Assembly (NCBI GenBank): GCA_017458065.1
Contig: JAFTGD010000024.1
Coordinates: 1-64,000 of the forward strand
Source: Oscillospiraceae bacterium
GTDB taxonomy: Bacteria; Bacillota; Clostridia; Oscillospirales; Oscillospiraceae
Direction of reading: 5' to 3'
DNA: 64,000 bases
The position numbers and the translations under genes were made by a program. This document shows, piece by piece, positions 55,858 through 62,920 of the stretch; within the stretch, counting starts at the first letter, position 1; every line of letters starts with the position of its first letter. A model generated the notes under the pieces. It made no database searches and had not been told where the DNA came from. It worked only from the letters and a program-made list of their open reading frames with translations.

Positions 55858-55906
55858 AAAACCGCCGAGGAGCCCGATTCTGTGGGCTTTCTCAGCGGTT
55901 TTCTTT
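55858..55906 (+). terminator. Terminator at the left edge of the integrated element
   Basis: AAAACCGC/GCGGTTTT (55858-55865, 55895-55902) with inner GAGGAGCCC/GGGCTTTCTC pairing, followed by CTTT. It abuts the left attachment repeat. Confidence 0.8.
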
Positions 55907-55951
55907 GGTCCGAGTGACTGGATTTGAACCAGCGGCCTCTTGAACCCCATT
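55905..55951. other. Left attachment site (attL), copy of tRNA-Pro 3' half
   Basis: 47 bp identical to 62874-62920. It contains the 3' half of tRNA-Pro (anticodon loop to CCA) on the minus strand; identity stops inside the anticodon region, where the real tRNA continues at the right end. This is the displaced tRNA end left by a tyrosine-integrase insertion. Confidence 0.93.
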
Positions 55952-56064
55952 GGCCTCTTGACAGAATTTAACGCATTAAAAGTTCGTATAAATGGCATTA
56001 AATAGCAATAAACTAAACTTTTACATCCAAATAAGTTCGTTCAGTACATTGTTTTTCGCTCCAA

Positions 56065-56092
56065 TTCCAGTCAAAACTCCAGTCAAAAAACG
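56065..56092. other. Left arm-type integrase sites
   Basis: TTCCAGTCAAAACTCCAGTC and AAAAAACG: two CCAGTCA copies 13 bp apart, 114 bp inside attL. The right end carries the same pair, so these are probable arm sites for the integrase N-terminal domain. Confidence 0.7.
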
Positions 56093-56198
56093 CCATTTTT
56101 CCGAGTTGATTCAAGAGGCCAAATTGGAAATTACTATTACACAGTGCATCAGCGGCAGGTCGCTCCGACCGCTTCGGCTCAGCAGGCTCCGTCCTCTC

Positions 56199-56855
56199 AG
56201 GAATTGAATTCTTCGCAGGCTCAGAATTCAATTCCTTCGTTCCCGTCGCCCTGCTGGCCTCGCGACCTTCGCTCCGTTCCGGTGCTCCGCACCTCAATGA
56301 AGAAGCGGGAGAGGCAGCGGTAGCGCTCGCCCGGCAGCGTTCCAGCATCGTTCCGCCGGCCCCGGCACCGCTCCCTGCGGGAATTCATCCCCGTTCTCGT
56401 GCCTCGCCCGGGAATGAATTCCCTGCGGTCGCTCCATCAGGCCTCCGCGCTGTAGCGGGAATTCTGATTCCCTCGCCTGTGGCTCCGGAAACAGAATTCC
56501 CTTTCTGCGCTCCGGCCTTCGTGCCGGGGCTGGCTCCACTTCGCCGGGCGCCGCCGATCTTCGCTTCTTGTTCCGTTCCGGCTTCCTCCGACTTCGCTTT
56601 CGCAGGAATCTGATTCCGCTCCTCTGTCGCAGAATCAGATTCCTGCTTCTCGCTTTGTCTCCGGCTGCCTCCACTCTGTTTGCCGCTGCGCGGCATGAGA
56701 GCGGGGGGAGCATGCGGAAGGGCGCCCGCGGCATTCGGTCTGGCCCTCCGGCTGCTCCGTGCCCTTCGGTTCTTCTCCGGGCGCCCAAGCGCGGATCCGG
56801 CTTGACTCCGTCCGCTCAGGAATTTCATTCTCCGCAGGCTCCAAATGAAATTCCT
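56199..56855. other. Array of five stem-loops with covarying stems
   Basis: Inverted repeats: H1 56199-56212/56223-56236 (14 bp, perfect), H2 56379-56392/56410-56423 (1 mismatch), H3 56457-56471/56487-56501 (1 mismatch), H4 56602-56616/56632-56646 (15 bp, perfect), H5 56818-56829/56844-56855 (12 bp, perfect). Each arm is a variant of GGAAT-N-ATTCC. H1 and H5 share flanks and loop (CTCAGGAATT, CGCAGGCTC, ATTCCTTCG) but have different, still complementary stems. The surroundings (56140-57000) are C/T-rich and lack a credible gene. Function unknown: ornate RNA, replication origin or protein-binding array. Confidence 0.8.
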
Positions 56856-57004
56856 TCGCTCCCTTCCTCTTCACCTGGATCATCCGCGCGCAGCGCCCTG
56901 GACAAAACCTCGGCACACTGCGCCCCTCCGGGCTGGCCTCTGCAGGCGGGCTCCCGATTGAAACCGGCTTCTCACTTCAGAGAAGTCCCGTGCCGACAGT
57001 CGCC

Positions 57005-57033
57005 TTGCCAAACTGAGCCCCTTGTGGTATGAT
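57005..57033 (+). promoter_or_regulatory. Promoter of the type I toxin mRNA
   Basis: TTGCCA (57005-57010), 17-bp spacer, TGG-TATGAT extended -10 (57028-57033). The start is near 57040. The leader contains CCCTCC-GGAAA-GGAGGG (about 57115-57133), which can mask the ribosome site. Confidence 0.75.
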
Positions 57034-57140
57034 ATCGTCAAGCAAAGGCACAACCCGGTGCGGTCAGTCCTCTTACTTCCTCCCAGGAATGTTAGGAGGG
57101 CAGCTTCTTATGATCTCCCTCCGGAAAGGAGGGCTGCCCA

Positions 57141-57224
57141 ATGGTATCATATACTGAGCTCATTCAGCTTGGCATTTTAATCGTTGGAATCATCAGCCTG
57201 TTCATTCAGGCAAATAAGAAGTGA
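57141..57224 (+). CDS. Type I toxin, small hydrophobic holin-like peptide
   Basis: 27 residues, below usual gene-calling limits: MVSYTELIQLGILIVGIISL followed by FIQANKK. One transmembrane helix with a short polar head and a basic tail, the pattern of TxpA/BsrG-type and 'putative holin-like' toxins of Firmicutes that depolarise the membrane. AAGGAGG lies 8 bp upstream, inside a potential hairpin. A consensus promoter on the opposite strand fires into its 3' end, giving an antisense antitoxin RNA. It lies in the integrated element, so it may act as an addiction module. Confidence 0.82.
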   Translation: MVSYTELIQLGILIVGIISLFIQANKK

Positions 57225-57308
57225 CCGCCGGCACCCTGACAAAGTACGGCGATCACTTCAAAGCCATTTGTGAGGACTGACCGCTAAAAACCGGTTCAGT
57301 GCCTTTGT
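57225..57308 (-). ncRNA. Antisense antitoxin RNA (5' part), overlapping the toxin mRNA 3' end
   Basis: Its promoter on the minus strand is TTGACA (57338-57343), 17-bp spacer, TATAAT (57315-57320), a perfect consensus. Transcription would start near 57308 and run toward the toxin gene. The overlap region holds CCGCTAAAAACCGG-type and other short hairpins. The RNA 3' end cannot be placed exactly; it probably extends into or past the toxin gene. Confidence 0.7.
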
Positions 57309-57314
57309 GTTTAT

Positions 57315-57343
57315 ATTATACGAGATAAAACGGCTTTTGTCAA
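57315..57343 (-). promoter_or_regulatory. Consensus promoter of the antitoxin RNA
   Basis: Minus-strand TTGACA-N17-TATAAT (57338-57343 and 57315-57320), stronger than the toxin promoter, as expected when the antitoxin must be in excess. Confidence 0.88.
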
Positions 57344-57737
57344 TTTTGTTTTGGAAAACGGGATCACTATAGGCGAGAACCGCCACTCGCATTGAATAAG
57401 ACGATTCATTAAAAACACCCCTAATCCCTATTCCTGAATAATATCATACAGAAAGAGCATGTGCAAGCAATGAAATGAGTCTCAATAAACATATGTTTAT
57501 TGCCTCTGTATCTGCGTGACAGCACCGCAGAGTTTCCCCGCCTGATCGCCGGTCAGAACGGGTATTTCGGTCAGTAAGTTTGAGCCGATATTCCTGATAA
57601 AACAACCGTCCTTTCCGCTCCATTCCCGCTCTTTTCATCTGTCCTCTGCCATCCTGCTCTGTGTGCAGGTCGTGCAGGTCTTTGCGGGATATCTGCGTCA
57701 GTCGTGGCACTCATAACTGAAAATGGAACAGGAAAGC
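57344..57737. other. Gene-poor spacer with a 20-bp palindrome
   Basis: Contains CAATAAACATATGTTTATTG (57483-57502), a perfect palindrome that could be an operator or part of an origin. A minus-strand frame of 88 codons (57444-57710) exists, but its codon use and composition are unconvincing and it lacks a clear ribosome site. Confidence 0.5.
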
Positions 57738-62730: not shown

Positions 62731-62789
62731 TCCAGTCAGGGAAAACCTGAAAGGCAGTTTTCAATTCCAGTCAAACTCCAGTCAAACGG
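62731..62789. other. Right arm-type integrase sites
   Basis: TTCCAGTCAAACTCCAGTCA followed by AACGG (62765-62789) and a single TCCAGTCA at 62731-62738, 85-145 bp inside attR, mirroring the pair at 56065-56092. Confidence 0.7.
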
Positions 62790-62873: not shown

Positions 62874-62920
62874 TTGGTCCGAGTGACTGGATTTGAACCA
62901 GCGGCCTCTTGAACCCCATT
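62874..62920. other. Right attachment site (attR) within tRNA-Pro
   Basis: 47 bp identical to 55905-55951. Together they bound an element of about 6.97 kb. Confidence 0.93.

Follow-up and report, generated by a model that had tools for sequence, protein, structure and literature searches.

A tandem hairpin array with changing but paired stems: a candidate modular structured RNA from an Oscillospiraceae genome

The region 56140–56969 of the window (the whole 64-kb stretch of DNA analysed here) may belong to a rare and so far undescribed family of structured RNAs with a modular architecture, a reading drawn from sequence comparison to which we assign a probability of about 0.5; the RNA would be transcribed and would serve as a scaffold or decoy. 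There are few large structured RNAs whose function is unknown, and every new family is a test bed for their roles. The array follows an unusual and directly testable rule, in which stem sequence is free, loops and linkers are kept and the units are modular; if the reading is true, the array would also be a candidate for an RNA carried as cargo by a minimal satellite-like element.

RESULTS

Five tandem hairpins in the window

The array in the window (array W) contains five hairpins with arms of 12–18 at 56199–56855 (Table 1), which confirms the tandem hairpins reported by an earlier note on this DNA: when hairpins with arms of 12 or longer and no more than one mismatch are sought, 56150–56960 contains five, against a mean of 0.055 and a maximum of 1 in 200 dinucleotide shuffles. 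The full 64-kb window holds 23 hairpins at the same thresholds. The description of three stems as perfect and two as carrying one mismatch is accurate if H4 is counted without its last three pairs, in which form its arm is perfect, but not at its full length of 18, where it has one mismatch. H1 and H5 lie within 61-nt repeats that are 84% identical. Inspection of their stems by eye shows two changes on both sides, as in the compensatory change that had been read from them, together with a loss of innermost pairs, and this comparison by itself is modest evidence. Tandem GA/AG mismatches are seen by eye beside H5 and H1 in the minus-strand sense. Folded as RNA, 56140–56960 is lower in energy on either strand than each of 20 shuffles (z −6.6 for the plus and −9.7 for the minus strand). 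The domain closed by a long-range helix was found in W only, and the rest of the genome that carries W holds no other strong copy of the array.

Table 1. Features of array W and of the candidate structured RNA region (window coordinates)
Feature	Coordinates	Strand	Description
H1	56199–56236	minus	14 of 14 pairs; type i loop, minus strand AGCCTGCGAAG
H2	56379–56423	minus	15 bp, one mismatch that is G-U on the minus strand; type ii loop GCGAGGCACGAG at 56396–56407
H3	56457–56501	minus	15 bp, one mismatch; loop an exact match to none of the three types
H4	56602–56646	minus	18 bp, one mismatch (C-A on the plus, G-U on the minus strand); loop outside the three types
H5	56818–56855	minus	12 of 12 pairs; type i loop, minus strand AGCCTGCGGAG
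5′ module (minus-strand sense)	56884–56969	minus	75% identity with the start of array A in G486
3′ module core GCGAGCGCTACC	56319–56330	minus	Common to W and B; A and D have diverged forms
Domain around H2 and H3	56355–56534	minus	Closed by a 14-bp long-range helix, 56355–56368 with 56521–56534, one mismatch
Whole candidate structured RNA region	56140–56969	minus	Ends approximate

Homologous arrays in a second genome

Related arrays occur in a second genome of the genus, G486: A and C, a third array (B) truncated by the end of a contig, and D, a relative with a single hairpin. Array A was found in a DNA search of 102 genus genomes through its match to the 5′ module, and the hairpins beside that match have stems mostly unlike those of the window. 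Array B was found from A in the same genome (71–76% identity), and the covariance-model search that the earlier note had proposed, run with a model (R1) built from eight units, revealed array C and, as a weak match, the single hairpin D at C40:8481. D aligns with A and B at 81% mean column identity over the three sequences. The thresholds used above yield five hairpins in W, seven in A, four in B and five in C. The 5′ module is common to W and A and the 3′ module core to W and B; linkers and recurring loop types are common to W and the G486 arrays, and most stems differ yet pair. On these alignments the loci are homologous. The four G486 loci sit between unrelated genes, and the 15.7 and 8.9 kb of sequence that surround A, B and D contain no tRNA genes.

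Three loop types recur: type i (AGCCTGCGGAG) in W, B and C, type ii (GCGAGGNACGAG) in W, A, B and C, and type iii (GACGCAGGAG) in A, B and C. Type iii is missing from W and type i from A, and two of the five W loops (H3 and H4) fit no type. At the position shared by A3 and B1 the flanks agree while the loop changes from type ii to type i. Between loci, stems have diverged more than loops and linkers, and in the minus-strand sense the non-stem parts contain 37–41% G and 9–13% T. The type ii loop pattern has matches in 48 of the 102 genus genomes and is overall not commoner than its reversed control, with single-genome counts of 7 versus 3 in G486, 6 versus 4 in the genome of the window and 5 versus 3 in G052; four of 30 loci with this pattern have a flanking helix of at least 9 (G-U allowed).

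Some further observations concern the surroundings of these loci. In array B (L218 8560–8624, minus strand) a hairpin is followed by a partial second copy of its loop and 3′ arm, an apparent local duplication. About 75 bases after array A (L182 3604–3679) have a 79% match in G465 (C6) and in the genome of the window (C83:117480–117554), both near a similar hydrolase gene. Downstream of array C (L232 2453–2671) is a 72-codon open reading frame starting MENKKAQALDDDLLENIIGG, which we take to resemble a double-glycine leader.

Pairing is kept while stems change

Comparison between homologous loci supports the maintenance of pairing as stem sequence changes. Model R1 was built from eight of the 14 hand-listed units (WH3, WH4, A1, A2, A3 and B1, which aligned out of register, were omitted), and model R2 from 12 of the 17 units that R1 matched at E up to 1, those with E up to 0.002. 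Among these 12 aligned units, which had been selected for pairing before covariation was counted, both-sided changes occur in 11 of 12 pairs and in 42 cells, where 500 shuffles give 11.7; 98.6% of all cells are paired, against 68.9% when shuffled and 25–51% with the partners slid.

Since these units were found by pairing, tests on positions matched by their flanks and on loop motifs matter. At A3/B1, nine of 15 flank-matched pairs are the same, five change on both sides and one is broken; of the five, three are transversions, for example T-A to A-T. At A4/B2, ten of 12 pairs are the same, one changes on both sides and one goes from U-U to U-G. For A6/B3/D, a both-sided change is present in some row at five of 15 pairs, and the three non-standard cells are all in D; the alignment of these pairs also has one gap. 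The short helix of the 3′ module has one of its five pairs broken in A. When loop motifs, themselves read from the arrays, were located regardless of pairing, a helix score of at least 8 was found at 16 of 17 places inside the four arrays and at none of 74 elsewhere, a set that includes D (score 5) and omits loci duplicating the arrays. Fold energies of W, A, B and C are far below those of shuffles on both strands; the fold of D is not below shuffles on either strand (z −0.28).

The maintained pairing from which the earlier note had argued for selection can be seen between homologous loci, at flank-matched positions and around loop motifs. Free drift of stems in homologues had been named as the observation that would speak against it; the stems do drift, but breaks are few. 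Pair-keeping changes on both sides, as expected of structured RNAs in general, are thus observed among homologues; a DNA hairpin could yield them likewise.

Strand and coding potential

If transcribed, the array is a little more likely to be read from the minus than from the plus strand. The folds of W and B speak for this reading, whereas the folds of A and C are slightly stronger on the other strand (z −11.8 versus −10.1 for A and −7.7 versus −7.0 for C). Weak support comes from the arm mismatches, among which G-U outnumbers A-C by 5:0 in the 14 hand-listed hairpins and by 6:2, 8:4 and 19:16 in automatic counts, none of which is significant (p = 0.14, 0.19 and 0.37). No promoter-like site was found in a search upstream of array C. 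Against a minus-strand reading, terminator-like hairpins with T-runs occur inside A (L182 2935–2958, minus) and B (L218 8784–8805, plus) on the less favoured strand of each array, in a scoring that left out terminal hairpins of the favoured strand.

As had been noted, the plus strand of the array region is C/T-rich. No kept reading frame is seen across W, A, B, C and D. Six-frame translations of the five loci give short matches in several frames and on both strands (best E 5.8e-12 over 37 residues, B versus D), and in our reading of this comparison no frame is conserved throughout the arrays; because no single frame is kept, the translated matches are attributed to DNA identity.

The carrying element and its relatives

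A 47-bp exact repeat of the end of a tRNA-Pro gene, at 55905–55951 and 62874–62920, bounds an element of ∼7 kb, and array W lies ∼250 bp from the att copy of tRNA-Pro, which agrees with the earlier placement of the array next to attL. The element encodes a tyrosine integrase, two HTH_17 proteins, an XRE regulator and an NrS-1-like primase-polymerase with D5/DUF5906 helicase parts. A 26-base repeat with one gap, CAATTCCAGTC(A)AAACTCCAGTCAAA, is present at both ends of the element (56062–56087 and 62762–62786) and is probably the arm site of the integrase; stretches resembling it occur in G049, G485, G484 and others.

Related elements do not seem to carry the array as a regular component. No array like W was found, by hairpin counts and by model R1, in 20 primase neighbourhoods, taken from 17 of the 39 genomes (one of them that of the window) with a match among 394 order genomes, or in 20 integrase neighbourhoods, some shortened by contig ends, from 18 of 26 matching genomes (that of the window counted) among the 102 of the genus. 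Nor was one found in 52 viral loci by hairpin counts, six of which were also searched with R1. The closest primase relatives are ∼51–55% identical, and no integrase relative was confirmed in viral contigs. Over 80 loci, R1 gave, besides copies of A, weak matches only in L098 (17.9 bits) and L194 (16.6 bits). Three hairpin clusters (L094, L099 and L161), each with four hairpins in 1 kb, were set aside, as their sequences are unrelated by eye. Around the G486 arrays, no relatives of the integrase, the primase or the HTH_17 proteins are present within 15.7, 8.9 and 4.0 kb. The claim that the array belongs to the element is accordingly kept for the window copy and dropped for the arrays of G486, given this result and the related elements without an array.

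A tRNA scan of 18 integrase neighbourhoods showed tRNA-Pro in five, tRNA-Ala in seven and no tRNA in six. The integrase-excisionase module (L142–L161) recurs in the genus at tRNA-Pro and tRNA-Ala genes with varying cargo.

Beside the array, 57005–57343 is likely a type I toxin-antitoxin locus. It has a promoter-like site on the plus strand (57005–57033), a short open reading frame (MVSYTELIQLGILIVGIISLFIQANKK, 57142–57225, by eye) with a hairpin at 57218–57259, and on the minus strand a promoter matching the consensus at 12 of 12 positions (57343–57315). By eye, both predicted RNAs would begin with similar repeats; in the par locus of pAD1 both RNAs also start with similar repeats. DNA relatives of the locus occur in G465 (three), G015, G042, G049 and G494, among others in the genus. 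Eight type I toxin loci elsewhere (L163, L164, L165, L167, L168, L169, L172 and L173) have no adjoining array, and the locus is therefore not considered part of the array system.

Rarity of the array

The Rfam scan that had been suggested returned no family: at the curated cut-offs of Rfam 15, with GOLLD, ROOL, OLE and HEARO included, the window contains two tRNAs only and the A, B, C and D loci have no match, and a permissive search of 55900–57500 gave chance-level matches only (best E 0.87). With R1 at E up to 0.01, four of the 102 genus genomes match and two, that of the window and G486, have arrays; in the order, five of 394 genomes match and the array is in the genome of the window only. 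With R2 at E up to 0.005, the genome of the window alone matches among 371 class and 220 family genomes, samples in which G486, having no match there, is taken as absent. These counts are based on at most 50 (genus), 13 (order) and 14 or 23 (class and family) scored candidates per genome, and weak copies may escape them.

Other genomes of the genus gave short DNA matches to the window stretch or to array A, among them weak ones in G051, G059, G025, G457 and G055; at 20 places apart from these weak ones an array was looked for, and one (G486) had it. In phages and plasmids, neither the window stretch nor array A was matched. In viral contigs the type iii loop and 3′ module patterns occur in 4 and 15 stretches without a unit detectable by R1 or R2, and the 5′ module pattern does not occur. 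The parts available to us of the literature on structured RNAs, GOLLD/ROOL/OLE, primase satellites and tandem stem-loops do not contain the array, which does not prove it unpublished.

Several candidates were rejected. GGAATNNNATTCNNCGCAGGCTC is not a widespread repeat: it has no match in viral stretches, and one base longer it is found in one genome contig, in surroundings that are coding by eye; with up to three mismatches it occurs in the genome of the window at H1, H5 and two three-mismatch places. The sole DNA match outside the genome of the window among 99 genomes, in G074, reads as coding. At weak model matches in G041, G467, G074, G287, G160 and G154 the hairpin finder shows no such array, and a cluster of short-loop hairpins in G154 (L238) is unrelated by eye. 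Of five weak R1 places in G486 (on C32, C3, C7 and C12 and at C40:8481), only the last, D, turned out to be related.

DISCUSSION

Proposed architecture

The structured RNA that the earlier note had listed among several possibilities is the best reading of these results. The molecule would be a chain of hairpin units, with stems of ∼12–19 pairs and G/A-rich, U-poor linkers, in which the units are often capped by one of the three recurring loops, and 5′ and 3′ modules are common to some copies. We infer that the working parts are the loops and linkers, which would offer a protein, another RNA or a copy of the same molecule a series of sites for docking. The stems would act as spacers, free in sequence provided that each arm pairs with its own partner, and the array as a whole would work as a multivalent scaffold or decoy. 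The window copy would be carried as cargo, close to attL, by a small satellite-like element integrated at tRNA-Pro; the G486 copies lie between other genes. A more tentative proposal is that such molecules represent a new architectural class of bacterial RNA, with interchangeable hairpin modules in which conserved docking sites in loops and linkers are held by rewritable stems that differ from one another, carried as satellite-like cargo for use as scaffold or decoy.

Alternative explanations

A function at the level of DNA and neutral correction of the arms are live rivals of a structured RNA. A recombinase or a protein of replication or partition may bind the hairpins as DNA, in cruciform or single-strand form, and recognise the sequence of their loops and linkers. 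Pairing holds on either strand, the fold excess of A and C does not separate the strands, the G-U excess is non-significant in the automatic counts and the window copy is near attL, all of which is consistent with this reading. The missing integrase, primase and HTH_17 relatives around the G486 arrays and the related elements without an array argue against it, as do minus-sense arm mismatches that by eye are often purine-purine, as in RNA, although base make-up could cause these; we consider it rather unlikely. The proposal that the array is a replication origin for the primase-helicase of the element, which the earlier note had tied to a P4-type primase, has in its favour an NrS-1-like primase-polymerase/helicase in the same 7-kb element, but arrays are absent from the primase and integrase neighbourhoods and the viral loci examined, and homologous arrays have no primase relative in the 15.7, 8.9 and 4.0 kb around them. 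This proposal is not supported and is considered very improbable.

Template switching in replication corrects quasi-palindromes, so that both arms change together, and could keep the arms alike without selection in a neutral or decaying repeat. The transversions at A3/B1, which bypass a wobble pair, and the duplicated half unit in B are in keeping with such a process. It leaves unexplained why loops and linkers exceed stems in likeness, and modules are common to different genomes; it is in our view unlikely. A family of palindromic repeats dispersed in trans, as REP/BIME or MITE elements are, would fit the four loci between unrelated genes in G486, but such repeats have stems in common whereas the stems here differ, inspection by eye showed neither element ends nor target duplications, and the copies are very few; we consider this origin unlikely as well. 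A structured RNA remains our preferred reading.

Comparison with known systems

REP/BIME and attC-type repeats are palindromic, and attC has core boxes and an integron integrase. The array is similar to them in its tandem imperfect palindromes and its location in non-coding DNA; it differs from REP in that stems are not common to the copies, and one palindrome in many copies, as in REP/BIME, was not observed. Decoy RNAs of the CsrB/RsmZ type consist of tandem, GGA-rich hairpins with GGA in the hairpin loops, and act on host CsrA. The array likewise has tandem hairpins and 31–54 GGA per kb in W, A, B and C, but its type ii loops have no GGA.

The carrying element resembles P4-like and minimalist satellites (PICMI), as far as the available descriptions of these go, in being small and tRNA-integrated and in having an integrase, small HTH proteins, a regulator and a primase, and is set apart by an array that does not appear to be a standing part of related elements. 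ROOL and GOLLD are phage- or prophage-borne and often near tRNA islands (PMC12286853). The candidate RNA differs from GOLLD, ROOL and OLE in having no Rfam match at cut-off, in its tandem hairpins with interchangeable loops and in its rarity; like them it is several hundred bases long, non-coding and heavily structured, with covariation, and these RNAs too have functions that are unknown or partly known.
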